Assembly: GCA_005116745.1 (NCBI GenBank)
Contig: SWDS01000009.1
Location: 187,509-251,508, forward strand
DNA length: 64,000 nt
Direction of reading: 5' to 3'
From: Nitrospira sp.
Lineage (GTDB): Bacteria > Nitrospirota > Nitrospiria > Nitrospirales > Nitrospiraceae
Part shown: piece after piece, positions 39,734-56,096 of the stretch
Position numbering within the stretch: the stretch's first letter is position 1
How the letters are laid out: every line of letters begins with the position of its first letter
Position numbers and translations under genes: made by a program
Notes under the pieces: model-generated
Told to the model about the DNA's origin: nothing
Database searches by the model: none
Seen by the model: only the letters and a program-made list of their open reading frames with translations

Positions 39734-39842
39734 GACGTAACGTCTGGATCCCTCAGCCTCTCTCCCAGCCTCGTTCAGGTTCTCCGATTCGATCGGTGTT
39801 CGTCGTGCATTCGGACAAGCCCAGTGCAGGAAGTGCCTCTTG

Positions 39843-40937
39843 ATGAAGAAGCCCCTCTCTCAGCGTGCTCGGCGAAACCCGCCAACCTCCGGGGCGACGA
39901 ACGTCGCCATTATCGGCGCCGGTCGTGGAGGGGCCGCGCTGATGGAGATCTTTGCAAACGATCCCCTCGTGCGGATTGTCGGTGTGGCGGAGCTTGATCC
40001 AAAAGCCCCAGGGCTAGAACTGGCGCAACAGTTCGGAATCCCGATCACGCACGACTATCGGCAGCTCCTCGCGATGGAGCGTGTCGATCTGATCATCGAT
40101 GTGTCGGGTGATGCAGAGGTCAGGAGGTTTCTTGAGGATTTCCATCGAATGGGTGTCACTATCATCGGCGGCGCCAGTGCAAAATTCATGTGGGAGCTGA
40201 TCGGCGCTCGTATTCGCGCGACGGCGGAGATCGAGAAGACGCTGAACAAATATCAATCCTTGTATCGGTTGTATGTGAAAGAGACTGGGGCGGCAGTGAC
40301 GGAGGAGCGGACCAGAATCGCTTGCGAGATCCACGACGGCTTCGTGCAGAGTTTGGCGGGGGTGAATTTCAAGCTGGATCTGTGCCAGGAACTCATCCGG
40401 AAGAAATCACGGGCTAGTTTGGCCACCATCAAGGAGAGCAAGGCTCAGCTGAAGTTGGCCATCCAGGAAGCCCGCCAAGTGATTTTCAACCTGCGTCCCC
40501 TGCACTACGACAAGATGGAATTGATTCCGGCCCTGACGAATTATTTCAAGTCGTATCAGCTTCAGACCCACATCACCACGAATTTTTCCGTGAGCGGAGA
40601 TGAGCAGATTCTCTTCCCACGGACGAAGATCTTTCTCTTTCGCATTATTCAGGAGGCTTTAAGCAACGTACAAAAACATGCACGGGCTGATCGAGTCTCG
40701 ATCAAGCTGGACATCGAGATGGAGCTGTTGCACGTCACCATTGCCGACAATGGAATCGGATTCGATCTGGAGGCCGTGCTGCGCGACCCTGAAAAGTGGG
40801 ATCATTTCGGAATCAAGGGCATCTTAGAACGAGCTCGACTGGTGGGAGGAGAGGGGCTCGTCCAATCGAAGCCGGGGAAGGGCACGAAAATCATCGTCAA
40901 GGTGCCGCTGGGGCATCGAGAGGAGAGGGAGGAGTAA
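39843..40937 (+). CDS. Histidine kinase (HisKA_3 type) with N-terminal Rossmann nucleotide-binding domain
   Basis: This 364-aa protein is taken from the ATG at 39843. Residues ~20-120 form a Gfo/Idh/MocA-like Rossmann fold: NVAIIGAGRGGAALMEIF (GxGxxG), VRIVGVAELDPKAPG and VDLIIDVSGD. A helical linker leads to the H-box EERTRIACEIHDGFVQSLAG with His164. The HATPase follows (IIQEALSNVQKHA, ADNGIGFD, KGTKIIVKVPL). No transmembrane segment is present, so it is a cytoplasmic kinase likely sensing a dinucleotide or a related ligand. It overlaps the next response-regulator gene by one base (TAATG). Confidence 0.88.
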   Translation: MKKPLSQRARRNPPTSGATNVAIIGAGRGGAALMEIFANDPLVRIVGVAELDPKAPGLELAQQFGIPITHDYRQLLAMERVDLIIDVSGDAEVRRFLEDFHRMGVTIIGGASAKFMWELIGARIRATAEIEKTLNKYQSLYRLYVKETGAAVTEERTRIACEIHDGFVQSLAGVNFKLDLCQELIRKKSRASLATIKESKAQLKLAIQEARQVIFNLRPLHYDKMELIPALTNYFKSYQLQTHITTNFSVSGDEQILFPRTKIFLFRIIQEALSNVQKHARADRVSIKLDIEMELLHVTIADNGIGFDLEAVLRDPEKWDHFGIKGILERARLVGGEGLVQSKPGKGTKIIVKVPLGHREEREE

Positions 40938-41608
40938 TGGAGAAAATCAAGGTGCTGATTGCCGACGATCACCGAGTGGTTCGGGAAGGCTTGGCAGCCA
41001 TTCTGAAGACCAAAGAGGACATTCACGTCATCGGCGAAGCACAAGACGGTGCAGAGGCCGTCGAAAAAGCCCGCGCCTTGCTTCCGGATGTGATCCTGAT
41101 GGATGTCAGCATGCCACGGATGGGAGGCGTCGAGGCCACCAGACAAGTCAAACGTGAGTTCCCGCACATCGGCATCGTGGCGTTGACCATGTACGAAGAA
41201 CAACAGTACATCTTCGATCTTGTCCGTGCGGGCGCGACAGGCTATCTCTTGAAAGACTCTGAATCGTCACAAATCGTGGCGGCCATTCGAGCGATCTCTC
41301 GAGGCGAATCGCTGATCCATCCGTCTGTTGCTAGTAAAATCTTGGCGGAGTTTTCATTAATGGCCCAAAAGAAGGGGAAAAAGCCATCCTGGGCTGAGCA
41401 TGATCTGACGGAGCGGGAGATTACGGTGTTACGATTGGTGGCCGACGGGAAAACCAACAAGGAGATCGCCAATACCCTTGATCTGAGCGAAAAGACGGTC
41501 AAGAATCACGTCCGGAACATCTTCCATAAACTACAAGTCTATGACCGCACGCAAGCGGCCATCACCGCCATCCGCAAGGGCCTGATCGAGCTGGATCCGA
41601 AGCGGTAG
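40937..41608 (+). CDS. NarL/FixJ-family response regulator
   Basis: This 223-aa protein starts at the ATG at 40937, overlapping the kinase stop (TAATG) with GGGAGGAG upstream. The receiver has phospho-acceptor Asp56 in VILMDVSMPRMGG, plus Thr84 and Lys106. The LuxR-type HTH is LTEREITVLRLVADGKTNKEIA through LSEKTVKNHVRNIFHKL. It is the cognate partner of the Rossmann-domain kinase. Targets are unknown; the nearest convergent genes are the lipoprotein array. Confidence 0.95.
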   Translation: MEKIKVLIADDHRVVREGLAAILKTKEDIHVIGEAQDGAEAVEKARALLPDVILMDVSMPRMGGVEATRQVKREFPHIGIVALTMYEEQQYIFDLVRAGATGYLLKDSESSQIVAAIRAISRGESLIHPSVASKILAEFSLMAQKKGKKPSWAEHDLTEREITVLRLVADGKTNKEIANTLDLSEKTVKNHVRNIFHKLQVYDRTQAAITAIRKGLIELDPKR

Positions 41609-41701: not shown

Positions 41702-42703
41702 TCAGCGCGCATCTCTAAAGACGTTGATCGTGTATGGTCTTGTACCCACTCCATCCTGTGCAATCACGGTAATCGTGAACAAGGTCGTGGTTCCCAAGCC
41801 GAGTGCACTGCTCACGCTTCCGGTTAAGACTCCTGCCGACGCGATCACGGACCCAGCTGCGGACATCACCGCATTCAGATCAGACTTGGTCGCCGTCACC
41901 GTCAGGCTGTCGACGCTGGCGGGGACAGTGACCGTATAGTTCAGTGTGCCGGCAGCAAATCCTGGATTCAGGGTGCCTGCAGTCACCGTCAAGGCCGACA
42001 GTGCGGCATTGCTCGAAGGCAGCGGTCGTTTCACGGTGACTGTGTAGGTCTTTTCAGCGCCACTGGGTGTTTGCACGAGGATGGTAATGAGCGTGTTCGA
42101 CCCTGGGGGCGCCAGCGGTGAAATCTCGCGTGGTTGACCGGAGCTGATTCCTTGTCCATTGATCATCAAGCTGGCATTTGAATCCTGAACCGTCGCAGTG
42201 ACGGTGAGACTGGAGGCATCGGTTGCCACGTCCACGGTGTAGTTCAGCGTGCCCGGTGAAACCCCTGGGGTTAAACTACCTGAGGACACAGTCAGGTTCG
42301 ACAAGATATTGTTGTCCCGGTGCACCGTGATGACGTAGGGGCTTTGACTTCCGCTCTGCTCAGTGAGGGTGATGATGATGAGTGTGTCCAATCCTGGATT
42401 ATTGAGGGGCTTTGAAAGACTTCGGGTCGGGGTCCCATCGATCGTGATGTTGGTGCTGCTATTTTCTGGTGTGGCTGTTACCGTCACGCTTGCGACGGTT
42501 GGCGGTACATGGAGCGTATAGGTGGTGATCGCGCTTGAAAAAGCCGGTTGGAGTCCTGGTTCAGAGACTGACAAGCTAGAGAGCCTGACCTGTGGTCCTT
42601 CCGAGATCGACCCCGCATCTTTGCAGCCGGAGGCACTGAGGACGGCGGTCAGGGAAAGAATACTGGCCAAACATTGTCCCATGACGGTGACTGTACGGTG
42701 CAT
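41702..42703 (-). CDS. Cadherin-like beta-sandwich lipoprotein 1 (three domains)
   Basis: This 333-aa protein has a signal peptide ending SASGC, followed by KDAGSISEG. Three ~95-residue tandem repeats follow, each starting LS.L.V..G.L.P.F and ending PYVITVHR or KTYTVTVKR, the PF12733 cadherin-like beta-sandwich pattern. The second half (two domains) is nearly the same, by eye, as the C-terminal 195 residues of lipoprotein 3. It is probably exposed at the cell surface. It has its own leader with an AAGAAAGTGA ribosome-binding region. Confidence 0.85.
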   Translation of the reverse strand: MHRTVTVMGQCLASILSLTAVLSASGCKDAGSISEGPQVRLSSLSVSEPGLQPAFSSAITTYTLHVPPTVASVTVTATPENSSTNITIDGTPTRSLSKPLNNPGLDTLIIITLTEQSGSQSPYVITVHRDNNILSNLTVSSGSLTPGVSPGTLNYTVDVATDASSLTVTATVQDSNASLMINGQGISSGQPREISPLAPPGSNTLITILVQTPSGAEKTYTVTVKRPLPSSNAALSALTVTAGTLNPGFAAGTLNYTVTVPASVDSLTVTATKSDLNAVMSAAGSVIASAGVLTGSVSSALGLGTTTLFTITVIAQDGVGTRPYTINVFRDAR

Positions 42704-43028
42704 ATGATATCGGTCACTTTCTTAAGTAAGAGGAACAAGCCTATGGATTGGGTGAACCCAAACGGTAGATGTCGCGACTACGAGAGGGTTCAAAATCGGC
42801 CTGTCAGGATTTTCATGAGGCCGAGCAGCTGTTCATTCTATAGCCGATCCAATCAGTCGGGTCAACAGATCAGATCAGAGATATGAAGATTGTGAATGGT
42901 GCGAGAGAGGCGGTTGACGAACAGCCTTGTCTCGCGGGTCTCTCACTCACTGCGGAGACAAATTGCTTTGATGTGTGCGTGAGAGAAAAAGTCTTGTGCT
43001 CGCTCAGGTTTGAAGCGCGGGCTACGGT
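42704..43028. other. Intergenic leader of lipoprotein 1
   Basis: 325 bp with no gene. It holds the shared leader box GACTACGAGAGGGTTC (42776-42791), the paired GGGTTC/GAACCC repeat of the array and the AAGAAAGTGA ribosome-binding region of the minus-strand gene. The rest shows nothing. Confidence 0.55.
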
Positions 43029-44039
43029 CTACCGGCGAGCGCGGATGATAGTGATGGTGTAGGGCGTTGAACTCACACCGTCTTGTGCCGTAACGGTAAT
43101 GTCCGCGTCGGTGCGTTTCCCACTCAGTGGGACGGATACTTGTCCTGTCTGTGTCCCTGCCGCGGCGATCACTGATCCAAACGCGAACATCATCGCATTT
43201 GGATCAGACTTCGTTGCGGAGATGATCACACTGTCCACATTATTAGCCACATCAACTTGGTAGTCCAAGATTCCCGATGCAAAATCTGGATCGAGGGAAC
43301 CTGAGCTCACAGTCAAGCCAGATAGAGCATCGTCGCTCGAAGGGGCCGCTCGTACGACGGTGACGGTATAGGTCCTTGAGGTTCCATTCGGCGCAGTGAC
43401 GACGATCGACACAACCTTCGTTGTTCCTGGGCCGTTGAGTATGATTGTCGCTCGTCCTTCGTTTGGCACATCACCCGATATCACGGCATTTGCATCAGAC
43501 TTGGTTGCGGAGACGGTCACTTCGGTAACAACGGTGGCGACGTTCACACGGTAGTTCTGAGTTCCTGCAGAAAAAGGAGGAGATAAGGTACCTGGCGACA
43601 GGGTCAAACTCCTAAGAGTGTTATCCCCGCCAAGGGTGATCGCTCTCAGGGTCATCGTGTATATCTTGGCTCTTCCATCTGGGGACGTGACGGTCAGTGA
43701 GATATCTTTGGTCGATCCAGGGCCAGGGGGTGAAATCGTTGTTTGTCCGGTGGCTTGCCCTGCTGGGGCAGTGATCGCACCAGACAACACGTCATTCGCA
43801 TCAGACTTCGTTGCCGAGAGGGTGAGGTCAGGAGTGGCACTGGGTAGGTCAACAATGTACCCGGTCGTTTCACTAGCGAACGGAGGTTGGAGCGATGCGC
43901 TGGAGACTGAGAGGCCGGCGAGTTGAGGGCCTGGATCAATCGATCCTGTATCTTGACAGCCATACAGACCCAAGCCCATGGCTCCGGCGAAAAGAGTGAT
44001 GGCCACATGTCGTATTGGGATGAGGTAGAAGCGTTGCAT
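43029..44039 (-). CDS. Cadherin-like beta-sandwich lipoprotein 2 (three domains)
   Basis: This 336-aa protein is taken from the ATG at 44039; the GTG at 44054 lies inside the ribosome-binding site. The signal peptide ends GLGLYGC with canonical LYGC and continues QDTGSIDPG. Three PF12733-like domains follow, linked by GGDNTLRSLTLSPG and PSSDDALSGLTVSSG. Several share the ATKSDANAV and SGAITAPAGQATGQ variant of the repeat seen in lipoprotein 5. The protein ends ITIIRARR. Confidence 0.85.
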   Translation of the reverse strand: MQRFYLIPIRHVAITLFAGAMGLGLYGCQDTGSIDPGPQLAGLSVSSASLQPPFASETTGYIVDLPSATPDLTLSATKSDANDVLSGAITAPAGQATGQTTISPPGPGSTKDISLTVTSPDGRAKIYTMTLRAITLGGDNTLRSLTLSPGTLSPPFSAGTQNYRVNVATVVTEVTVSATKSDANAVISGDVPNEGRATIILNGPGTTKVVSIVVTAPNGTSRTYTVTVVRAAPSSDDALSGLTVSSGSLDPDFASGILDYQVDVANNVDSVIISATKSDPNAMMFAFGSVIAAAGTQTGQVSVPLSGKRTDADITVTAQDGVSSTPYTITIIRARR

Positions 44040-44147
44040 GATGGACCCAATCACTTTCTTGTGCTGCGTAGACTGTTGGGTCCAGCCGCCTGTGTGAACC
44101 AGAAGGGTAGAGGCAGATATTACGAAAGGGTTCCTGAATAGATCTAT

Positions 44148-44173
44148 CCCTACTTGCGTATGGAGAAGTAGGG
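44148..44173. promoter_or_regulatory. Operator-like palindrome CCCTACTT/AAGTAGGG
   Basis: A perfect 8-bp inverted repeat with a 10-bp spacer in the 44040-44372 spacer, upstream of lipoprotein 2. The related CCCCTA/TAGGGG palindrome at 48888-48907 suggests a shared regulator site. The rest of the 333-bp spacer contains the leader box at 44115-44132 and no gene. Confidence 0.4.
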
Positions 44174-44372
44174 CGCGTGCAGGGTGGCCTCTAACTGGCG
44201 GAGGTCAACGGATGGATCGAAAGATTAGGAAGGGTAGCAATGGTGCGAGAGGGAATACCCGTCGGTGATGGAGAGCTATTCCTATGCCGGTTCTCCTTGC
44301 CGTCGTCGGCCTGTTCGTTCACCGGATTTCACAACCCCCTGGGAAAAACCATGAGGGTAACTCGCATGATGT

Positions 44373-45998
44373 CTAGCGAGAATCTCTGAAGACGTTGATC
44401 GTGTACGGTCTTGTAGTCACTCCATCCTGTGCGGTCACGGTAATCGTGAACAGGGTCGTGGTTCCTAAGCCGAGTGCACTGCTCACGCTTCCGGTTGCAA
44501 CGCCTGGTGGGGCGATCACGGACCCTGATGCGGATGCCACTGCATTCGGATCAGACTTGGTCGCCGTTACCGTTAGGCTGTCGACGCTGGCCTGGACGTT
44601 GACCGTATAATTCAGTGTCCCGGCGGCAAAGCTGGGATTCAAGGTGCCTGCGCTCACCGTCAAAGCCGAGAGCGCGGCATCGCTTGATGGCAGCGGTCGT
44701 TTTACGGTGACCGTGTAGGTCTTTTCAGTTCCACTGGGTGCTCGCACGAGGATGGTGATGAGCGTGTCCGATCCTGGGGGCGCCAGCGGAGAAATCTTGC
44801 GTGGTTGACCGGAGCTGATTCCTTGTCCATCAATCATCAAGCTGGCATTTGAATCCTGAACCGTTGCGGTGATGGTGAGACTGGAGACACCGGTGGCTAC
44901 GTCTACGGTGTAGGGCAGCTGGTCCTGAGCAAAGGCAGGAGCCAGGGTGCCTGGTGTCACGCTGAGAGTTTTCAAGTTGTTATCAGCCGAAAGCGCTGCT
45001 CGGTTCATAGTGATGACGTACGGCTGCCGACTGCCATTCTGTGCTATCACGAGAACTTCTATGTCTGTGGGCAAGCCAGGATCTTGAAGGTCGATGGTAC
45101 GTGCCTGACCTGAATTGGCAACTTGTCCATTCACCTGTAGAGTTGAGCTTGATTCCTGTGGAGTTGCGGTCACCACCACGCGGTCAGTGCCGCTGCCGAC
45201 ATTGACCGTATATCTCGTGGTGTTCGCCGTAAAGGAAGGGTCCAGCGTACCCGGCGACACGGTCAGCTTCCCAAGATTGAAATTTCCTCCGAGGGCGGCT
45301 CGCACCACAGTCACAAGGTACGACTTTAGACTCCCATTCGGGGCTGTCACGACAATGGTAATGTCCTTACTCGATCCAGGATCTCCAAGGTCGATGGCAC
45401 GGGCTTGCCCAGAAATAGTGCCCTGGCCATCCACGTCGAGCGCCGCTGTTGGGTCCTGAAGAGTTGCGGTGACGCTGACTCGAGCCGTGCCGCTGCCGAC
45501 CTGTGCCGTATACTTTGTTGTGCCAGCCCTAAACGCAGGGTTGAGGGGGCCCGGCGACAGGGATAAACTTCGGAGATCGGTATTGCTTGAGGCCGGTCTG
45601 GTTACAATGACCACATACGTGGTCTGCGCTCCGCTTTGGTCCGTGATGCGGATAAAGATGCTCTTCGTCGAGGGGGCCGAATCTAACGTGACTGAGATCC
45701 CCTGGGCAGTGCCGGCCGGCTGCCCATCGATCGTCATCGAGGCAGTGCTACTTTCAGGGGTGGCTCTTACTATGACACTGCTATCGGTCGTCGATATCGT
45801 GGCTCGGTAATCCGTGACGTTGGAGGAAAAAGCCGGTTGAAGGGCTCCAGGAGGGGTGACCGCTAAGCTAGAGAGTCTTACGGGTGGCCCTTCCGAGACT
45901 GTGGCGGAATCGCCACACCCATACGTGCCCAAACCAAGTGCGATAAAAACAATGGCGGCTAGGTATTGCACGGCAATGGTGAACGGACGTCCCATCAT
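44373..45998 (-). CDS. Cadherin-like beta-sandwich lipoprotein 3 (five domains)
   Basis: This 541-aa protein is taken from the ATG at 45998. The signal peptide ends GLGTYGC (Thr at -3, a weak lipobox) and continues GDSATVSEG. Five tandem PF12733-like domains of ~95-100 residues follow. Domains 4-5 are nearly identical to domains 2-3 of lipoprotein 1, while domains 1-3 differ. Both proteins end TTRPYTINVFRD-type. It lies in the same orientation as its neighbours with its own leader. Confidence 0.85.
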   Translation of the reverse strand: MMGRPFTIAVQYLAAIVFIALGLGTYGCGDSATVSEGPPVRLSSLAVTPPGALQPAFSSNVTDYRATISTTDSSVIVRATPESSTASMTIDGQPAGTAQGISVTLDSAPSTKSIFIRITDQSGAQTTYVVIVTRPASSNTDLRSLSLSPGPLNPAFRAGTTKYTAQVGSGTARVSVTATLQDPTAALDVDGQGTISGQARAIDLGDPGSSKDITIVVTAPNGSLKSYLVTVVRAALGGNFNLGKLTVSPGTLDPSFTANTTRYTVNVGSGTDRVVVTATPQESSSTLQVNGQVANSGQARTIDLQDPGLPTDIEVLVIAQNGSRQPYVITMNRAALSADNNLKTLSVTPGTLAPAFAQDQLPYTVDVATGVSSLTITATVQDSNASLMIDGQGISSGQPRKISPLAPPGSDTLITILVRAPSGTEKTYTVTVKRPLPSSDAALSALTVSAGTLNPSFAAGTLNYTVNVQASVDSLTVTATKSDPNAVASASGSVIAPPGVATGSVSSALGLGTTTLFTITVTAQDGVTTRPYTINVFRDSR

Positions 45999-46240
45999 GC
46001 GGCGGTCACTTTCCCTTAATACGTGAAGTGATGAGCCTGTGTACTCTGGCGAACCCAAACGCTAAGGCGGAAACGACGGGAGGGTTCGAGTGTCTACTGA
46101 GGCGAAGCAGGAGTGACAGATATAGCCAATCCGACCGGTGAGGTCAAGACGTCAAATTGGGCGAGTAAAACTGGTGCGTCGGAGTTAGTTGCTGCCGAAA
46201 CAGTCGCGCTGTCGGTGTGGCCAACACCGTGCCCCAGGGG

Positions 46241-48784
46241 CTATGGCCCAGGGGCTACGGTGTCGATGGTCACAGTCAAGGACGCACTCTGGGGAGATTC
46301 AAGGCCCCCTGCATTAGTCACGGTACTGGTAATTGTGTGTACCCCGTCACTCAATGCTGCTGTCGGTGTGAGGGTATTGGCGCCCGAGTCAAATCCTTGC
46401 TTGGCTATGCTCCCATCAACATAGAGGGTTGGGGTTTCTCCTGCTGCTGGCTGGGCCACGGTGAAGCTCGGCGCTGTGACGTTAGTGACGTTGTCATCCT
46501 TACTAGTGCCCGGGGCACACACAGCAGGATCAGGAATACCAGGTTCACAGGAGTCATCCTCTGGTATCAGGTCCGGTGCACTTGTCGGTGCTGGTGGTGA
46601 AGCGGGCGCTGGTTGGTTGACGGTAATGGAGTACGTCTTATCATTGCTGTTTGGCGCAATCACACGAACGTCTATTTCGGTTTGGGATGGGCCAGTTGGG
46701 AGAGAGATGGAACGGGAGCTCCCCCCTTGTCCATTGATCGTCACGCTTGCGCTTGAATCCTGGGGAGTGGCGGTCACAGTGATATTGGTATCGCTGCTGC
46801 CGACGTTGTTTACGGCATAGTCAGTCCTAGTCCTGGTTGCGCTAAACGGGGGACTCAGGGTGCCCGGTGATACGGTCAATGCCGACAGATTGTTGTTTCC
46901 ACCAAGGGCGGCACGCTCGACAGTGACGGCATAGGGTTTCTGGCTGCTATTGGGTGCGGTCACTACGATATTGATCAAGGTATTCAATCCTGCTCCATTC
47001 AACGTAATGGAACGGCCCTGACCAGACGTAGCGGGTGTCCCATTCACGGTGATCGTTGCATTAGGATCCTGCCGCGTAGGCGTGACCGTTATGCTGGATA
47101 CACTGCTCCCCACCTCCACCGTATAGCTCAGATCGTTTGCATTGAAGGTAGCGTCCAAGGAACCTGGTGATACGGTTAGCGCCGACAGATTGTTATTCCC
47201 ACCAAGGGCGGCACGATTGATACCCACTGTGTAAGTTCTCTGAGTGCCGTTCTGTGCCGTCACAATAATAATGACGGAGGTGTTCGAACCCGCTGGACCC
47301 AATTGAATGGTTTGAGCTTGTCCGGAGGTGGAGGGTTGTCCATTGACGGTCATGCTGGCAGTGCCATCCTGCACCCTGGGCGTGACTGTCACGCTGGTCA
47401 CGGTGCTCGCCACATTCACCGTATAGCTCGTTCTGTTCGCGCTAAAAGTCGGGTTCAAGGTCCCCGGTGAAACGGTCAAGCTCTGCAGAGTATTGTTACT
47501 GGAGACTCCACGACTCACAGTAATCAAATAGCTTTTCGCATTTCCGTTCTGTGCCGTTACGACGATGGGGACGTTAGTGTCTTGACCTGCAGGGTTGAGG
47601 GATACTGTGCGGGACTGCCCTGAGCCGATGGCTTGCCCATTCACCGTCATTGTGGCAGTGGAATCGTCGGGAGTAGGAGTTACATTGATGGTTCCGACGT
47701 TGTTGGCCACATCGACTGTATAGGTTAGTAGGCCCTCATCGAATGAGGGGGTCAGGGTCCCGGGCGACACAGTTAAGATCCTGAGGTTGTTGTTTCCATT
47801 ACGGGCGGCACGGTTGATACCCACTGTGTAGGTTTTCTGGGTGCCGTTCTGTGCTGTCACAGTAATAATGATAGGTGTGTTCGAACCCTCTGCACCCAAC
47901 TGAATAGTTCGAGCTTGGCCGGAGTTGGTGCCTTGCCCATTCACGGTCATTGTTGCAGCAGGATCTTGCACCCTGGGCGTGACGGTGATGTTGACCACGG
48001 TGCTCGCCACATTCACTGTATAGCCCGTCCGGCTCGCAAGAAAGGCGCGGTCCAGGGTGCCTGGTGATACAGTCAAACCCTGCAAGTTATTATTACCGGA
48101 TACTCCACGACTCACCGTTACCTGGTATGTTTTCGGGGTTCCGTTCTGCGCGGTCACAACAATCGGGATGTTAGTGGGTTGGCCTGCAGGATTGAGAGTT
48201 ACCGTACGGGCCTGCCCGGAGTTGGTGGCTTGTCCATTCACCGTCATCGTCGCGGCTGGATCGGAAAGCGTGGGGGTCACTCTGATACTTCCGACAGTAT
48301 TGGCAACGTCGACTGAATAGTTGAGATCGTTCGCAGTGAATTCGGAATCCAGGGTCCCGGGCGACACGCTCAGGTCTTGTAACGAGTTGTTCCCAGTTAA
48401 GCCAGCTCTCACGAAAAGGACAGTGTAGGTTCTCGAATTCGTGCCTGTCTCTGACACGACGATGTTCACGGGAGTTGTTATCCCCGCCGCGCCCAGCGGA
48501 ATCACGCTGCTGGTCGTGGCCTGTCCGTTGATCGTCACGCTGTCGCCAGCCACAGCAGGCTGAGCGGTTATGGTCGCGCTCGTGATGTTGTTGGAAATAT
48601 CAACAGTGTATTGGGTGGTTCCCCCGCTGAAAGCTGGTTGGAGCGTGCCGGGGTCGACCGTCAGGCTCGCAAGTTCCACCACGGGGTTTACCGTCGCTGA
48701 GTCGCCACAGCCATAGGCGATCACACCGATCACAAGGAGAAACGCGGCAGCGAGATACTGTCTCACGACGGTCAAGGTACGCAT
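46241..48784 (-). CDS. Cadherin-like beta-sandwich lipoprotein 4 (seven domains plus Ig-like tail)
   Basis: This 847-aa protein is taken from the ATG at 48784. The signal peptide ends VIAYGC (Ala at -3) then GDSATVNPV. Seven cadherin-like domains follow, with domains 2-3 and 4-5 forming an A-B-A'-B' pattern (VSRGVS then GINRAA ends). A proline-rich linker with two cysteines (DSCEPG, AVCAPG) leads to an Ig-like domain ending LTVTIDTVAPGP. The stop codon lies in a 14-bp tandem duplication (46233-46260), and the same frame is open for 48 codons beyond it, so the C-terminus may be truncated. Confidence 0.82.
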   Translation of the reverse strand: MRTLTVVRQYLAAAFLLVIGVIAYGCGDSATVNPVVELASLTVDPGTLQPAFSGGTTQYTVDISNNITSATITAQPAVAGDSVTINGQATTSSVIPLGAAGITTPVNIVVSETGTNSRTYTVLFVRAGLTGNNSLQDLSVSPGTLDSEFTANDLNYSVDVANTVGSIRVTPTLSDPAATMTVNGQATNSGQARTVTLNPAGQPTNIPIVVTAQNGTPKTYQVTVSRGVSGNNNLQGLTVSPGTLDRAFLASRTGYTVNVASTVVNITVTPRVQDPAATMTVNGQGTNSGQARTIQLGAEGSNTPIIITVTAQNGTQKTYTVGINRAARNGNNNLRILTVSPGTLTPSFDEGLLTYTVDVANNVGTINVTPTPDDSTATMTVNGQAIGSGQSRTVSLNPAGQDTNVPIVVTAQNGNAKSYLITVSRGVSSNNTLQSLTVSPGTLNPTFSANRTSYTVNVASTVTSVTVTPRVQDGTASMTVNGQPSTSGQAQTIQLGPAGSNTSVIIIVTAQNGTQRTYTVGINRAALGGNNNLSALTVSPGSLDATFNANDLSYTVEVGSSVSSITVTPTRQDPNATITVNGTPATSGQGRSITLNGAGLNTLINIVVTAPNSSQKPYAVTVERAALGGNNNLSALTVSPGTLSPPFSATRTRTDYAVNNVGSSDTNITVTATPQDSSASVTINGQGGSSRSISLPTGPSQTEIDVRVIAPNSNDKTYSITVNQPAPASPPAPTSAPDLIPEDDSCEPGIPDPAVCAPGTSKDDNVTNVTAPSFTVAQPAAGETPTLYVDGSIAKQGFDSGANTLTPTAALSDGVHTITSTVTNAGGLESPQSASLTVTIDTVAPGP

Positions 48785-48887
48785 GGCGATGTAGTCTCTT
48801 TCTCCAGAGGCGTGATGTGGCAGGTCCATTAGCATGAACCTCAATATAAATGGGTTGGATAATACGAAACTGCTAAAGGTTGGTCTA

Positions 48888-48907
48888 CCCCTACTTTGGT
48901 ATAGGGG
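48888..48907. promoter_or_regulatory. Operator-like palindrome CCCCTA/TAGGGG
   Basis: A perfect 6-bp inverted repeat with an 8-bp spacer, upstream of lipoprotein 4 in the 48785-48981 gap. The leader box (TAATACGAAAC) lies at 48859-48870. Compare 44148-44173. Confidence 0.4.
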
Positions 48908-48981
48908 AAATAGGACACGTCCTTATGGACCATCCTCGGATCATGATGGAGCGAAGCGGTCTAGGCGGATTTGAAGCGTCG

Positions 48982-50619
48982 CTAGAAGAATGCGCGAGTG
49001 ATCGTCACAGAGTATATCTTTGAGTCTCCATTCGGAGCCGTGACAGTGATCGATACTGTTCTGGGAAACAGTGGTATGAGTAGAAAGGTCTCTTGACCTA
49101 TTGGAACCCCGGTCCCGGCTGTTAGGTCACCTGACATCACGGCATTCGAGTCGGATTTTGTGGCCGAGACGGTCACGCTGTCGACACTGAATGGAACATC
49201 CAGTGTGTAGATCGTGGTATTGGCAGCAAAGTCAGGAACCAAGGGGGCTCCTGTCACAGTCAATGCCGCCAGGTTGGCGTCGCTCGATGGCGCCGCTCGG
49301 TTTACTGTGACGGTATATGTTTGAAAGGTTCCACTTGGTGCAGTGACGGTGATCGATATCGAGGTGGGTGTTCCTGCTCCGTTCAGAGAAATGGTTGCTT
49401 GACCGGTCCCTTGCCCTGCTCCAGGATCTGCGATCGACCCGGACAGAACAGCATTTGGATCCGATTTGGTTGCCGTGACAGTCACTTCCGTGACGTCGGT
49501 GGCTACGTTTACCGTGTAGGGTAAGTTGTTCGCATTAAAATCTGGAGCCAACGGTTGCACCACGGCATTCGCTGTTACCGTCAAGGCCGACAGATTATTG
49601 TTGCTCGATGCGGCGCGATTTACGGTGATGGTGTAGGGTTTAGAGGCTCCACTGGGTGCAGTGACGGTGATCGATACCACCTTGCTTGTCCCTGGCCCAT
49701 CGAGCGGGATGGTCGCTTGGCCTGTGGCAATTCCAGTTCCGGCTGTGACGTCACCGGACATCACGGCATTTGCATCGGCCTTGGTTGCCGAAACATCAAC
49801 GCTGGTGACAGTGGTTTCCACATTTACCGTGTAGCTCAGTGTATTCGCAGCAAAGGTGGGGTCTAGGGTACCCGGCGTTACGCTCAAGGCCGACAGATTA
49901 TTGTTGCTCGAAGGCGCCGCTCGGTTCACCGTGATACGGTAGGTGTTTGCGCTGCCATTCGGAGCGGTTACGGTGATTGTCACAGGGGTGGAGGTCCCTG
50001 GCACGCCAAGTGCATTGGTGGCTTGTCCTGTCGCGACTCCTGCCCCTGCAGTTAGCGAGCCAGTCATCATGGCATTCGAGTCTGATTTAGTTGCGGAGAC
50101 GGTCATGCTGGTGACGGTGGTTGCCACGTTCACCGTGTAATCCAAGGTGCTCGATGTAAAGGTGGGAGTCAAGGAGCCTGGTGTCACCGTTAAGGCGGAC
50201 AGATTGTTGTCGCTCGATAGGAGTCTCGTAACCGTGACGGTATAGGTGGTCTCAAGTCCAGTCTGTGTTTCCACCACAATGAGGATGGTCGTGGTCGATC
50301 CCGGAGAGCCGAGCGCGACAGATCGTCCCTGCCCCGCAGCGGTTACAATCCCATTGATCGTGACCGTGGCCGTATTGTCTTTGGGGACGGCGGTCACGGT
50401 GACGCTGGTCGCGGATGTCGGCGCATTGACCGCGTAGTTCGTGGTATTGGCCAAAAACCCAGGTTGGAGGGTTCCAGGGGTGACCGTCAGGTTGGACAAG
50501 GGTGCTGCGACGTCTTCCGATACCGACGCCGTGTCTGCGCAGCCGTAGGCACTTAAGCCGATGACAAGGAACAGGGCAGTGACGAGCCATTGTCCTGGGG
50601 ATATGAAGTTCTGTTTCAT
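48982..50619 (-). CDS. Cadherin-like beta-sandwich lipoprotein 5 (five domains)
   Basis: This 545-aa protein is taken from the ATG at 50619. The signal peptide ends GLSAYGC (Ala at -3) then ADTASVSED. Five PF12733-like domains follow with linkers such as PSSNNNLSALSVTPG. Domains 2-5 carry the ATKSDSNAVMSGDLTAGTG variant in place of the NGQ...SGQAR variant used in lipoproteins 3 and 4, showing two repeat subtypes in the array. It ends YSVTITRAFF. It is probably a surface-exposed lipoprotein. Confidence 0.85.
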   Translation of the reverse strand: MKQNFISPGQWLVTALFLVIGLSAYGCADTASVSEDVAAPLSNLTVTPGTLQPGFLANTTNYAVNAPTSATSVTVTAVPKDNTATVTINGIVTAAGQGRSVALGSPGSTTTILIVVETQTGLETTYTVTVTRLLSSDNNLSALTVTPGSLTPTFTSSTLDYTVNVATTVTSMTVSATKSDSNAMMTGSLTAGAGVATGQATNALGVPGTSTPVTITVTAPNGSANTYRITVNRAAPSSNNNLSALSVTPGTLDPTFAANTLSYTVNVETTVTSVDVSATKADANAVMSGDVTAGTGIATGQATIPLDGPGTSKVVSITVTAPSGASKPYTITVNRAASSNNNLSALTVTANAVVQPLAPDFNANNLPYTVNVATDVTEVTVTATKSDPNAVLSGSIADPGAGQGTGQATISLNGAGTPTSISITVTAPSGTFQTYTVTVNRAAPSSDANLAALTVTGAPLVPDFAANTTIYTLDVPFSVDSVTVSATKSDSNAVMSGDLTAGTGVPIGQETFLLIPLFPRTVSITVTAPNGDSKIYSVTITRAFF

Positions 50620-50853
50620 AGAACGCCGATCACTTTCTTGTGATGGAGGAGTGACGGACTGGTTCATGCTTATACAGCCTGACTGTAGGTGCTGATACTA
50701 CGAGAGAGGTCGTATTCGGTCGAGCCCTACATAGGTAAGGGTTTGCCGTCATTGTGAGGCGAAGAGGCTAGCTGCTGAACCTATGATTGCATGGCGGTGG
50801 CATTGCCATTGTCGGTCGGCGCGCGTGTGTAGGATATGCTTCGCGTTGAGCGG

Positions 50854-52233
50854 TCAGTGCCCGGATTGTGAAGCGCCCTGCGATTTGGCGAGGAGCTCGG
50901 CCTTGGAGGGGATCTGTGTGAGGAGATCCGGGCGTACCTGAAAGACTCCTTGCAGACGTTGGCCGGTGGCATAGAGGAGATTGCCTGCCTTGTTGCCGAG
51001 AGTCAGTTTCCCTGTGGTCTGGCCGTCCTTGCCCGTCACCACAAATTCTGCGGCGGGCGCAAGTAGCCCGTAAGGGGCCAGTGGTGCGGATTGTTTCATG
51101 ACGCGTTCTTCTGCGGGAAGATTCGCGACCCGGCTGACAAAGAGATCTGCCGCTTCTTGGCTAATCTTCTCGGTGGGCTGATCTTCGAGCAGCCATTCGC
51201 CAGTTTGGTTGATCAAGACATACTGATGTTCTCTCGTCTTCACCGACAACACGGCGATGTCGGTGGAGTCGAGGCCGAGCAGCCGTTTGTCCTGGAGCGT
51301 GAAGAGTTCTTTCGTGAGATCTCTGATCAGTATAGGGTTGATGCGATAGAGCGGGCCGTCGGCGGTGGTCTCCGCGATGGCTTCTCCGCTCTGGGGGTCC
51401 GGTTGATACAGCCGGACGGACTGATCACCGGCTGCCGTATGCAGCGTGATTTTTAGCTTGGGGGTCGTCAGAGTCTTGGCCACGCTGTCTCGTTCAGGAC
51501 CTGGATCGATGATGCCGAGTGCTTTCAGATCTTCCAACCGAAACATCAAGGAGCGGACTTCGTTCTGGTCGGCTTCGGCTTCGATGGGATAGCGGATCTT
51601 CCACGACGGCTTCGGCTTATCCTTGGCCATGTTGTAGAGCACGACTTCGGTGGTGGCATAGGTCAAGCGGACCCGTTCGATATCATTCTGGACAAACCGC
51701 AAGAGCTCTTTTCGACGGAATGCCATCAACGACTTATTGATGAAGTCCTTCGGCGCCAGGTTGGTCAGTAACACGCTCCGGTCCGATGCCCGAAGCACAT
51801 AGAGGGTATTGGACAGCGGACCACTGTCGCCGATTGAAATTGTCTCGTGTTGTGTCCCGGCCATGACGGTGAGGGTGGTCACCGGCTGTTCAAGCCCGAA
51901 GGCCGCCAACTGTGTCGCCTGCTCCTCGACCATTCTGGTGACGGTTCCTGTCACGAGCGCTCGAATCAGCGCCTGCACTTCGCGATGATCGGCATCTGCT
52001 TGAAGCGGAGCCACAATCGACCATTTACCAGGTTCTGCCAGCTTTAATTCGATAGGCCCCTGCGCGGTGGTGATCCTGAGTCCGGTGATGGCGGTTTCGG
52101 GGAAGGGCAGGACTTGTTTCTGTGCACGGTCCTGTTTTTCTTCTCGCTGCTGGGCGGGAAACTCCACGAGATAGAGATAGCCTCCGAGGCCAGCCAGCGC
52201 GAGGAACATGAGTAGAGTCGGCCAGTAGCGCAT
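50854..52233 (-). CDS. DUF4340-domain protein
   Basis: This 459-aa protein has an N-terminal transmembrane segment (MRYWPTLLMFLALAGLGGYLYLVEF). Repeated DUF4340 modules follow: ITGLRITTAQGPIELKLAEPGKWSIVAPL, VVLYNMAKDKPKPSWKIRYP and VLINQTGEWLLEDQPTEKISQ. DUF4340 proteins commonly accompany the GldA/F/G-type ABC systems upstream here. It is the last gene of that operon, separated from gldG by a 150-bp gap containing the second palindromic repeat. The role is unknown. Confidence 0.85.
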   Translation of the reverse strand: MRYWPTLLMFLALAGLGGYLYLVEFPAQQREEKQDRAQKQVLPFPETAITGLRITTAQGPIELKLAEPGKWSIVAPLQADADHREVQALIRALVTGTVTRMVEEQATQLAAFGLEQPVTTLTVMAGTQHETISIGDSGPLSNTLYVLRASDRSVLLTNLAPKDFINKSLMAFRRKELLRFVQNDIERVRLTYATTEVVLYNMAKDKPKPSWKIRYPIEAEADQNEVRSLMFRLEDLKALGIIDPGPERDSVAKTLTTPKLKITLHTAAGDQSVRLYQPDPQSGEAIAETTADGPLYRINPILIRDLTKELFTLQDKRLLGLDSTDIAVLSVKTREHQYVLINQTGEWLLEDQPTEKISQEAADLFVSRVANLPAEERVMKQSAPLAPYGLLAPAAEFVVTGKDGQTTGKLTLGNKAGNLLYATGQRLQGVFQVRPDLLTQIPSKAELLAKSQGASQSGH

Positions 52234-52235
52234 AT

Positions 52236-52359
52236 CAGGATGGTGAAAATTGCCGCCAGCTGCGTTCTCGCATCGTTCAGACCCTCAACGTACTCCAGAG
52301 AGTACGCCTCGGCCCTTCACTCGCTGCGGCCTTGCTGGACAGCCATTTTGACCATCCTG
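52236..52359. repeat. 124-bp imperfect palindromic dispersed repeat, copy 2
   Basis: The ends are CAGGATGGT and ACCATCCTG, a perfect 9-bp inverted repeat. The internal CCAGC/TGCTGG pairing, CTCAACGTAC core and TCACTCGCTGCGGCC segment match the copy at 5189-5311 in the same orientation. It lies between two genes of one minus-strand operon and could modulate read-through or mRNA stability. Confidence 0.75.
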
Positions 52360-52383
52360 CAGAAGATATGTGACGAAGGCCTA

Positions 52384-53907
52384 TCATAATCGTCGGCGTT
52401 TTCTCCACACGATGATGCCGGTAAGCAGCGTCACGAATGGAAGGAACACAACTTGGATGTAAATCAGCGCCCGTTCTTGGGTGGGGTTGGGCGTGAACGG
52501 GTGCAACGCCGGTTCCTTTGGCGCGATGGACATCAAGTCCCGTTCCTCAGCCAGCCATCCGATCGTGTGGAGAAAAAAGTCGCTGTTACCGGGGAAATTG
52601 AAAAAGGCGTTGGAGACGAAGGTGGAGTTCCCGATAACCACGATAGCAGGTCGAGGTGTGCCCTCCTCCGGGGCTTTCTTCGGTGCCAGCGCGGCCGCCA
52701 TAGGTAGCGGTCCTTTCACGTCTTCCTTTTCGTTCAGGCTCACGACCCGGCCTTGCATGTTCATTTCAGCCCAGCTATTCGGCGAAGTACGGGCCAGTGG
52801 TACAAAGTCCCAGTCTTTTCCGACCTGCTCGTCGAACGTCACGTGCCGGGATAACGGTAACAGCACAGCGGAGTTGAGGTCTTGCGTGATCTCATGCTCG
52901 GTAAACGTTCTGACCAACAGCGCGGTGAGATCTCCCTGGGCCAACCGATCTTGCAGATCGACCAACACCCCCGACCCCAGACCTAGTCCCCAATGGGCGA
53001 GCAATGATTCCAGTCCAGTCTGTGTATCGGGATCGGCCAACACCAAGAGGTGGCCGCCCTTCTCGACGTAGGCCTGAATACGGTCCTGCTCGTCTTTCAT
53101 CACGGCGCGGCGGGGGCCTGCCACTATCAGTACAGCGGTATGATCCGGCACGGCTGATTCCTTAAGAAGCGAGAGTGTGCCGACCTCATAGCCCTGTCGG
53201 ATGAGCGCTTCTTTGGCAGCGGAGAGCCCATTGCGGTCCTTGTCCTCGACATTCAATTCGCTGTGGCCCTCGACGAAGACGATGCGTTTCTTGGCATCTT
53301 TGGAGATACGGATCAGCGCACCGGTCAGCTCAACCTCTGAGGGAGAGGTGACGCGGATCGTCTGGCCATTGCTCTCGAAAATGGCGGTGTCTGTCCGGAA
53401 GATTCCATAACTTTGAGCGATCTTCGGCTGTTTCTCCGGGTCGATGAATTCTACGCTGAGCTTGGGAGACGCTTGCCGATAACTCTCCAGTCGTTCTTTG
53501 AATGCTTGATAGCCGGGATCTTTTTCTCTCGTGAAGACGGTAATTTTAATGTCGTGGGGCAGGCCGCGAAGTACGCGGTAGGTTTGTGGGGCGAGCGTAA
53601 AATTCTGATTTTCTGAGAGGTCCCAACGTATCGAGTGTCGAGAGGCCAGAAAGTTCACAATGATCAAGATGCCGGTGAACAATACGATCATCAGAAAGCT
53701 GTTCAGCCCCATCCTTGTCGAGCGTCGACCGGAGAACGCCTTGACTGCCTCAAAATGAAAAACGAAGAACAGGACGAGGCAGACCAGCGCCAGCCCTTCC
53801 ACGATCGTGACGGCCCACAGCCAGTCAGGGCGAAGGCTGTACGTGATCATGCCGCCGAGGCCAAGCACGACTCCGAGAATGCCGAGAGGAAAGGACTTGA
53901 GGCTCAT
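52384..53907 (-). CDS. GldG-family ABC-associated protein
   Basis: This 507-aa protein starts with two transmembrane segments (SFPLGILGVVLGLGGM, SFLMIVLFTGILIIVNFLA). A GldG-like extracytoplasmic domain follows (FTLAPQTYRVLRGLPHDIKITVFTREKD, GHSELN, LLVLADPDTQTGLESLLAHWGL). The C-terminal helix is LIYIQVVFLPFVTLLTGIIVW. GldG proteins partner with GldA/GldF ABC exporters. The ATG overlaps the permease stop by 4 bp, indicating coupling. Cargo is unknown; gliding is not implied. Confidence 0.85.
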   Translation of the reverse strand: MSLKSFPLGILGVVLGLGGMITYSLRPDWLWAVTIVEGLALVCLVLFFVFHFEAVKAFSGRRSTRMGLNSFLMIVLFTGILIIVNFLASRHSIRWDLSENQNFTLAPQTYRVLRGLPHDIKITVFTREKDPGYQAFKERLESYRQASPKLSVEFIDPEKQPKIAQSYGIFRTDTAIFESNGQTIRVTSPSEVELTGALIRISKDAKKRIVFVEGHSELNVEDKDRNGLSAAKEALIRQGYEVGTLSLLKESAVPDHTAVLIVAGPRRAVMKDEQDRIQAYVEKGGHLLVLADPDTQTGLESLLAHWGLGLGSGVLVDLQDRLAQGDLTALLVRTFTEHEITQDLNSAVLLPLSRHVTFDEQVGKDWDFVPLARTSPNSWAEMNMQGRVVSLNEKEDVKGPLPMAAALAPKKAPEEGTPRPAIVVIGNSTFVSNAFFNFPGNSDFFLHTIGWLAEERDLMSIAPKEPALHPFTPNPTQERALIYIQVVFLPFVTLLTGIIVWRKRRRL

Positions 53908-54677
53908 TTCCAGCGTGTCGACTCCACGACCCGATGTGTGAGAAACAGCATGAGTACCAATCCGCTTCCGAAGTACAGGAGATCGCTTGTGTCGATCAAT
54001 CCCCGCACCAGACGCTCATAATGTTCCATGTAGGAGACATACGAGATGACGCGGCCTGCCGTGGTATCACCGAAGAGACTCCCCAATCCAGCGATTAACC
54101 AGATGGTCAGGAGTAGGCCGAAGCTCACAAAGGCGGCGACGATTTGATTTTCCGTCAGCGCCGAGGCAAACAGGCCCACGGAAAGAAACAGGGCTCCCAG
54201 CAGCACCATGCCCACATAGCCGGTCCAGATGGGATTCCAGTCGAAGTCGCTGAACAGCATCAGTACTGTGGGAACCAATACCGTGAGCCCGACGAGGCCG
54301 AGATAGATTAGGAACACGCTGACGAATTTGCCGACGACGATTTCATGAATCCTGATCGGTGAGGTCATCAAAAACTCAAAAGTCCGCAGCTTGCGCTCTT
54401 CCGCGAACAATCGCATGGTCAGGATGGGCAGAATAATCACGAGGACGATCCGCATGCTCGCGAACAGATTTCGGAAGACCAGATCGTTCAAGTTGATTTG
54501 GGCCATTCCCCCCTGCTGCATCTGCATCAATTGGATGGCTTGCGCTCCAGCGAAACCAACGTAGAGGTAGGAGAGCAGCCCGAAGATGAACAGAAAGACC
54601 GCGCCGACCACATAGACAATGGGGGAGACGAAGTAACCGCGCAGTTCTTTGGCGATGATGGCCTGCACCGGTGTCAT
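53904..54677 (-). CDS. ABC-2 type permease subunit (GldF-like)
   Basis: This 257-aa polytopic protein has six hydrophobic helices and the ABC-2 pattern ELRGYFVSPIVYVVGAVFLFIFG, RLFAEERKLRTFEFLMTSPIRIHEIVVGKF and GALFLSVGLFASALTENQIVAAF. RLFAEERKxxTxELL is characteristic of GldF/NosY-type permeases. It forms the transport channel with the ATPase encoded 6 bp upstream. Confidence 0.9.
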   Translation of the reverse strand: MTPVQAIIAKELRGYFVSPIVYVVGAVFLFIFGLLSYLYVGFAGAQAIQLMQMQQGGMAQINLNDLVFRNLFASMRIVLVIILPILTMRLFAEERKLRTFEFLMTSPIRIHEIVVGKFVSVFLIYLGLVGLTVLVPTVLMLFSDFDWNPIWTGYVGMVLLGALFLSVGLFASALTENQIVAAFVSFGLLLTIWLIAGLGSLFGDTTAGRVISYVSYMEHYERLVRGLIDTSDLLYFGSGLVLMLFLTHRVVESTRWK

Positions 54678-54683
54678 AATAGG

Positions 54684-55670
54684 CTACGCCTCTGTCTTTT
54701 CGGCTGAGACCATGCTGACGGCGGCCTCAGGCGGTTCGGAGAGGTGGTCTTCGTGGCGCGTGAGCTGGAGGAAGACGTCTTCCAACGTCATCGACACGGT
54801 GCGGAGCTCAAGCAATCCCCACTGGCTCAACACGGCTACACGTGCGATCTCGTCCCGCAGATCACGGCCCAGCTCGCATTCGAGAAGAAAGCTCCCTCCT
54901 GCCTGTCCGGGAAAAACATTGAGCACGCCGGGAATCGCGCGAAGTTTCATCTCGCAGTCCGCTGGGCATGCCTTGAGGGTAATCGAAACTTTCTCCGATT
55001 GACGCAATCGGGCCGATAACTGTTCAGGGGTATCTTCCGCAACGATACGGCCTTGATTGATGATGACAACCCGTTGGCAGACTGCGGTCGCTTCCGGAAG
55101 GATATGGGTGCTGAGAATTACGGAATGCGAGCCGGCCAGGCTCTTGATGAGCTCTCGGATTTCAATGATCTGCTTGGGGTCAAGGCCGACCGTTGGTTCG
55201 TCAAGGATCAACACCGGGGGATCGTGTAAGAGCGCTTGCGCCAGCCCTACGCGCTGACGATAACCGCGAGACAGGTTGCCGATCAACCGATGGCGGACGG
55301 AGCCCAGCTCAAGTCGTCCAATTGATTGGTCGAGCGCAGACGAGAGTTTCGGTCCCGTGATTCCACGGAGTCGGCCGACAAAAGTCAGATATTCCGCCAC
55401 TGTGAGTTCTTGATAGACCGGCGGTGTTTCCGGCAGGTAGCCGATTTGCCGTTTCACTTCCAATGGCTGGTCGGCGCAATCAAACCCCGCTACGCGTGCC
55501 GTGCCTTCGGTCGCCGGCATGAAGCACGTTAAGATCCGCATGGTGGTTGTTTTGCCCGCCCCGTTGGGACCAAGGAACGCCAGCACCTCGCCCTTGGCCA
55601 CCGAGAAGGTGACGCGATCAATGGCGGTGTGATGCCCGTAGCGCTTGGTGATGTTGTGAACGTCGATCAC
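54684..55670 (-). CDS. ABC transporter ATP-binding protein (GldA-like)
   Basis: This 328-aa protein is taken from GTG at 55670 (MIDVHNITKRYGHHTAIDRV); longer starts up to 55778 are possible. Walker A is GPNGAGKTTT, the signature is LSRGYRQRVGLAQAL, Walker B is VLILDEPTVGLD and the switch histidine is in STHILPE. The ~110-residue C-terminal extension with GLLELRTVSMTLEDVFLQLTR is usual for ABC-2 exporters. It drives the GldF-like permease and is the first gene of the four-gene operon. Confidence 0.92.
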   Translation of the reverse strand: MIDVHNITKRYGHHTAIDRVTFSVAKGEVLAFLGPNGAGKTTTMRILTCFMPATEGTARVAGFDCADQPLEVKRQIGYLPETPPVYQELTVAEYLTFVGRLRGITGPKLSSALDQSIGRLELGSVRHRLIGNLSRGYRQRVGLAQALLHDPPVLILDEPTVGLDPKQIIEIRELIKSLAGSHSVILSTHILPEATAVCQRVVIINQGRIVAEDTPEQLSARLRQSEKVSITLKACPADCEMKLRAIPGVLNVFPGQAGGSFLLECELGRDLRDEIARVAVLSQWGLLELRTVSMTLEDVFLQLTRHEDHLSEPPEAAVSMVSAEKTEA

Positions 55671-56096
55671 GAATGTGGTATCGGTGTGAACAATTGCGGA
55701 GAATGGAGTGGTACCGCTCTCGAAACTACACCATATTCCTTGACGGAGGATCTTACTCACTCCGTTCAAAGCAGTCAATATAGGGGTAGTAGGATGAGTA
55801 TCACGCCTGATGGGTCATCTACGCAATGTCGGGAGCCTGATCGCTGAACGATGTCTCCCTGTCGTTTCCGGATCCGTATGATCTACACAGGTGTTGAATT
55901 TAAATCCTGGCTCGTTTATATAGAAGCCTATCCGTTGAATTTTCCCCACAGTCATCCTCTCGCTTACAGAGAGGAGCTCCATACGGAAGTGGGGGAGCCG
56001 AGTACTCCAGTCGGTATTGTCGAAGTCCCATACCTTTTATACCCTGACTCGACCAGTGGTCTCGTTGTTACCGTCAAGAGGGAGGGGATACCCAGC

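Follow-up and report, generated by a model that had tools for sequence, protein, structure and literature searches.

A 64,000-nucleotide stretch of a Nitrospira genome (contig SWDS01000009.1 of assembly GCA_005116745.1, hereafter the window) contains, at positions 41702-50619, an array of five consecutive minus-strand genes whose lipoprotein-like products are built of tandem PF12733 domains. We name the five open reading frames (ORFs) p1 to p5, numbering them from the side of a neighboring regulator. Searches with the Pfam profile recovered 3, 3, 5, 7 and 5 PF12733 domains in these genes, as the original prediction, made from the letters alone, had proposed; its span was also right, with 50619 being the likely start of the last gene. 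A genome-wide search found 23 PF12733 domains in the whole 3.86-Mb assembly, every one of them inside the array, and a search of 14 control genomes for the same domain returned none. All 23 exceed the curated cut-off of 24.2 bits, with the best scoring 74.3 and the weakest 25.6, and all except the weakest lie far above it. The genome also has an AmoA-family gene and is therefore that of a comammox-type Nitrospira.

The first gene, p1 (41702..42703, minus strand like the rest), encodes three PF12733 domains detected by Pfam at 42317-42583, 42026-42304 and 41714-42001, preceded by the lipobox ASGC-KDAGSIS. It is followed by p2 (43029..44054), with three domains, the lipobox LYGC-QDTGSID and a likely start at 44039 (MQRFYLIP), and p3 (44373..46058), with five domains, the lipobox TYGC-GDSATVS and a likely start at about 45995-45998 (MMGRPF). 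The longest, p4 (46241..48844), has seven domains behind the lipobox AYGC-GDSATVN and a likely start at 48784 (MRTLTVV); its repeats are followed by a linker rich in proline and, at the C-terminus, by a Big_13 domain, an Ig-like domain identified by Pfam. Finally, p5 (48982..50667) has five domains and the lipobox AYGC-ADTASVS; its ORF extends up to 50667, and the likely true start at 50619 (MKQNFISP) is shared with relatives. Thus, the YGC form of the lipobox is found in four of the five genes, with only p1 differing, and not in three of five as first reported.

To characterize the protein start more widely, we surveyed 104 array genes of the genus, among which a few loci may count near-identical orthologs. 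These proteins have a charged start, a hydrophobic stretch and a cysteine, with glycine immediately before the cysteine in 102 of the 104. In comparison to the lipobox consensus [LVI][ASTVI][GAS]C, however, A, T or S is common at -3 and tyrosine occupies -2 in 58 of the 104. Behind the cysteine, aspartate is found at +3 in 100 of the 104, followed by S/T (mostly) at +4, A/G/V at +5, then S/T and V/I. In the window's genome this post-cysteine motif proved to be both real and specific to the array: a degenerate nucleotide pattern encoding G-C-x-D-[ST]-x-[ST]-[IV] gives six matches, of which four lie inside the array, while the other two translate as GCYDW.. and GCID-stop and hence represent no such protein start. 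The arrangement is reminiscent of the surface lipoproteins of Bacteroidota that bear an export signal, which likewise have an N-terminus of the lipidated-cysteine type and, shortly after the cysteine, a conserved acidic residue (PMC5080379). That signal requires two acidic residues, in the form K-(D/E)2, Q-A-(D/E)2 or an SDDDD-like motif after the cysteine (PMC5080379). In contrast, the array proteins belong to another phylum, show one aspartate at +3 followed by [ST]-[AGV]-[ST]-[VI], and have no SusCD neighbors. The predicted signal peptide, the invariant cysteine, the absence of aspartate at +2 and the predicted extended all-beta rods make a surface location plausible.

We sorted 267 PF12733 domains from 17 loci by position into first, interior and last, and looked up for each its closest counterpart among the other proteins of its genome; in 202 of 258 comparisons the two shared a positional class. 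Shuffling positions within proteins yielded a mean of 104 same-class cases, with a standard deviation of 8.8 and a maximum of 131. Hence, the proteins obey a domain-order rule, with first-, interior- and last-type domains forming separate sequence classes. The two repeat subtypes initially noticed are real, but the positional classes describe the domains better. Interior domains are also duplicated within proteins, with identities of up to 0.99.

AlphaFold models predict three beta sandwiches for p1 (mean predicted local distance difference test score, pLDDT, 86.5; predicted template modeling score, pTM, 0.65), and seven sandwiches plus the Big_13 region for p4 (mean pLDDT 80.7, pTM 0.31). There are 7-8 strands per domain, in agreement with the seven-stranded cadherin-like beta sandwich of PF12733, and many domain cores have a pLDDT of 90 or more; because the overall pTM values are low, the angles between domains are not fixed by the models. 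No solved structure matched p4 by sequence. Foldseek matches include cadherins and an Aeromonas RTX adhesin, with the structural matches 6xi1 and 2yn3 being RTX-/SiiE-type adhesins, and the top VIA structural matches are a Bifidobacterium galactosidase domain (Z 12.3) and a levan-utilisome chain (Z 10.2). Inspection of the consensus of the first, interior and last domains showed none of the calcium motifs of calcium-dependent cadherins (LDRE, DxNDN, and DxD at linkers). RTX-/SiiE-type adhesins are giant single proteins exported by type I secretion. Like them, the array proteins are predicted to form tandem beta-sandwich rods, which in those adhesins sit on the cell exterior, but they are short, with a signal-peptide-like start and a putative cysteine anchor, and no RTX domain was among their Pfam matches. 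As members of the PF12733 family they are typical in that all 23 domains pass the curated threshold and the modeled domains are beta sandwiches; they differ in architecture, as previously known members join the domain to enzymes or to SLH or Fn3 domains (Anantharaman and Aravind 2010, PMC2824669), whereas the array encodes lipoprotein-like strings of PF12733 alone, with one Big_13.

Comparison with relatives showed that the array changes faster than its surroundings. Between the window and either G007 or G019, two array-bearing relatives, the flanking DNA is 92-95% identical, whereas the array is mostly 70-87% identical, with whole genes added or missing. Domain counts per gene, listed from the regulator side, are 3,3,5,7,5 in the window; 3,5,7,5 in CG24B (on a 1.76-Mb contig); 3,7,4 in G019; 3,3,5,5,6 in G013; 3,5,3,5,6 in G006; 3,3,5,8,5 in G016; 3,6,5,6,3 in G018; 3,3,5,8,5,6 in G007, where two genes are frameshifted; and, in two single-contig genomes, 3,3,5,6,5 (G114) and 3,5,7,3 (G130). 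Rather than the single-copy genes with invariant domain counts that would have refuted the original prediction, syntenic relatives carry 3-6 array genes per genome with 2-8 domains per protein. Several genes are evident chimeras. The second gene of G019 is p4-like at its 5' end and 93-98% identical to p3 of CG24B in its 3' half, and therefore represents a deletion that fused p4 and p3. In the window, the last part of p3 is 87-94% identical to other p3 genes, but its domains 1-3 have been replaced relative to CG24B and G007 and match G073 only. Domains 2-3 of p1 are 87% identical at the DNA level to domains 4-5 of p3 in the window, over 545 nucleotides and without gaps; this unit of p1 is closest to the p3 gene of G007 (89.9%), and p1 of G007 matches it in the last domain only.

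The ratio of nonsynonymous to synonymous substitution rates (dN/dS) is 0.21-0.49 for p1, p2 and p5 against 0.02-0.16 for the flanking genes, at comparable dS (0.30-0.44 and 0.11-0.40, respectively). For p3 and p4 against CG24B, dS exceeds 1, as expected if parts of these genes are not orthologous. Taken together, the gene and domain number and content that vary between genomes whose flanks are 92-99% identical, the chimeras and the raised dN/dS uphold the earlier suggestion of a recombining repertoire outside the housekeeping functions. Mosaic paralogs and variable copy number, by which recombination-diversified surface protein families are recognized, are both present. Multigene surface families such as opa, vls and tprK are antigenically or phase variable. 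The array resembles them in being a set of envelope-protein paralogs that have diverged by recombining with one another, but neither silent cassettes nor an invertible promoter nor a switch based on repeat tracts was seen, and its change is observed between species.

The array occupies an identical position in every relative with an intact locus; in one genome, G012, it is split. In a tree of seven flanking proteins, array-bearing and array-less genomes fall on opposite sides of one split with a support of 1.000, and no sampled genome on the array-bearing side is without the array. The tree has no outgroup root, so that gain and loss are not distinguished, and the distribution fits one gain, or one loss, at a fixed site. 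In G021, which is 99% complete and has no array, the flanks are directly adjacent, about 170 bp apart, forming an empty site. Among the other array-less genomes, G017 has a gene for a PAS hybrid kinase in the gap between the flanks; G022 and G014 have their flanks on separate stretches, with about 88 kb between them in G022. We found no reason to regard the array as a horizontal element: there is no composition shift and there are no inverted repeats, viral contigs yielded no relatives and plasmids only distant ones. A link to ammonia oxidation was likewise rejected, as both array-bearing and array-less genomes include some with AmoA-family genes.

Each array gene seems, from its upstream sequence, to have its own promoter, of one of two recurring classes. 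The class A pattern, found upstream of p2, p4 and p5, reads TAC-N4-GTAGGG-N-T(A/C)GA(C/T)C and has a TAnTAT-like box 17 nt further on. Its instances, all on the minus strand, are GTAGGGCTCGACC for p5 (50718..50730; 17 nt before TAGTAT), GTAGGGGTAGACC for p4 (48882..48894; 17 nt before TATTAT) and GTAGGGATAGATC for p2 (44141..44153). The element recurs in 17 array genes of the genus, at a nearly constant distance from the cysteine codon and with the TAC...GTA letters invariant. Two further matches in the genome were set aside as probably due to chance, one lying within a glucan-synthase-like gene and the other having neither the palindrome nor a -10 box. The class B promoter-like sites, also on the minus strand, match the consensus: TTGACC-N17-TATATC for p3 (46119..46147) and TTGACC-N17-TATAGA for p1 (42837..42865). 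The TAC-N4-GTA palindrome could suit a NarL-type regulator such as the one encoded beside the array, which could control the genes through the class A element; we treat this as no more than a lead. The empty site of G021 (L079:4930-4960) holds GGTTTAGCCCTACTTAT, which is near the class A element but in the opposite orientation, and is either a remnant or due to chance.

In light of these features, we regard it as moderately probable that the array is a clade-specific, diversifying repertoire of outer-membrane-anchored, rod-like proteins that contact other cells or the matrix. Nitrospira of sublineage II form dense single-species micro-colonies embedded in extracellular polymeric substances (EPS) (PMC4070959), and the contacts are probably with the micro-colony or the EPS. 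A repertoire of contact proteins is the best fit because it accommodates the anchored rods, the fast shuffling, the clade-wide retention and the life in EPS-embedded micro-colonies, and the predicted fold is consistent with an adhesin function. The cysteine would be lipidated and the protein carried to the outer membrane, from which the rods would project outwards. Their variable domains would then touch neighboring cells, exopolysaccharide or a surface, most likely within dense clonal micro-colonies. Recombination between paralogs swaps, fuses, adds and removes genes and domains while preserving the first-interior-last order, and the variation would be maintained since contacts with kin, partners, phages or predators select for change.

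Several points weigh against such contact proteins. The lipobox is off-consensus at both -3 (A/T/S) and -2 (Y), and the two-acidic-residue motif of Bacteroidota export was not seen in the 104 array genes, which have a single conserved acidic residue, at +3. The periplasm of Nitrospira is unusually wide (PMC4070959) and could accommodate rods of considerable length. The fold matches have middling scores and show a shared beta-sandwich arrangement only, which is no evidence of function. Moreover, dN/dS is below 1, so that positive selection is not implied, and relaxed constraint would raise it too. Finally, the array-less sister group lives without these proteins. A bolder reading, that lineage-specific combinations of rods serve kin or partner recognition, with matching ones holding clonal micro-colonies together, has a loose parallel in the clustered protocadherins of animals; we give it a low probability.

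The main rival, to which we assign an appreciable if clearly lesser probability, is that these are outer-membrane lipoproteins binding glycans, either the cell's own EPS or external ones, with diversification tracking the variety of glycans and not cell-cell contact. Carbohydrate binding has been proposed for PF12733 because the domain occurs fused with glycosidase, SLH and discoidin domains (Anantharaman and Aravind, PMC2824669), and the galactosidase domain and levan-utilisome chain are the best structural matches. However, the scanned syntenic array proteins include no catalytic domain, the conserved neighbors include no glycosidase or SusCD-like genes, and harvesting of glycans would be unexpected in a chemolithoautotroph such as Nitrospira. 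Binding of EPS overlaps with a role in matrix contact, and the two readings may be the same if EPS is the ligand. It is rather doubtful that the proteins are structural spacers of the periplasm or outer membrane, that is, rods of varied length tethering or spacing the envelope layers. The lipoprotein-type anchor, the extended multi-domain rods, the wide periplasm (PMC4070959) and the adjoining envelope-type ABC/GldG/DUF4340 operon would all suit this role, but spacers are expected to be constant in length and sequence, whereas here close relatives have rapidly come to differ in how many domains and genes they have and in sequence, and related array-less species retain the neighboring operon. 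Least satisfactory, and improbable, is mainly neutral churning, in which a weakly constrained repeat array undergoes unequal crossing-over and gene conversion with no selection for variety: tandem repeats do recombine easily and dN/dS is raised but below 1, yet no genome on the array-bearing side has lost the array, this side shares a conserved start motif, domain grammar and promoters, and most genes are intact, with the exception of the frameshifts in G007, which are possibly assembly errors.

Literature searches on Nitrospira and cadherin-like proteins returned nothing relevant; the array is thus undescribed in the literature searched, though made of known parts. Nitrospira, comammox species among them, live in dense single-species micro-colonies, and proteins holding these together were likewise not found there. 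As a fast-evolving cluster retained clade-wide, the array offers a concrete candidate for micro-colony cohesion in Nitrospira, including comammox species. It also provides an unusually clear natural record of the shuffling of bacterial repeat domains between fixed first and last units.

Upstream of the array, and outside it, is a minus-strand operon (50854..55778) encoding a DUF4340 protein, a GldG-like protein (ABC_transp_aux), a GldF-like permease and a GldA-like ATPase. Downstream, in convergent orientation, a histidine kinase and a NarL-type response regulator are encoded on the plus strand (39840..41608). Both flanks are conserved whether or not the array is present; as array-less species retain them, we rejected the ABC/GldG/DUF4340 genes and the two-component pair as dedicated partners or a dependent operon. 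In the histidine kinase (39840-40937), a Gfo/Idh/MocA-like Rossmann domain takes the place of the usual sensor domain at the N-terminus. In two of the array-less genomes, Tn7-like tnsA/B/C genes come immediately after the response regulator (L084:7081-11999 in G022, by Pfam; L088 in G014, by sequence likeness), which makes the site a possible hot spot for insertions. The split array of G012 (L047, L048, L094) is distributed over two contigs; both sides carry p5-like genes that are similar to each other, and one break has a DDE transposase gene nearby. The two frameshifted genes of G007 (L041:7707-12027) stem either from faulty assembly or from genuine inactivation.

Other genera of the family also possess lipoprotein-like PF12733 arrays (L116 in G050; L117 and L118 in G059), with 3-9 domains and a lipobox of the CIP type, at other loci away from these flanking genes; the theme is therefore wider than this clade. 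In addition, proteins combining a TIR_2 domain with PF12733 repeats are found in G007 (L042:4895-6871) and G123 (L124:4430-6898), with an FGE-sulfatase domain also present in the latter, an odd pairing with a signaling or defense domain.

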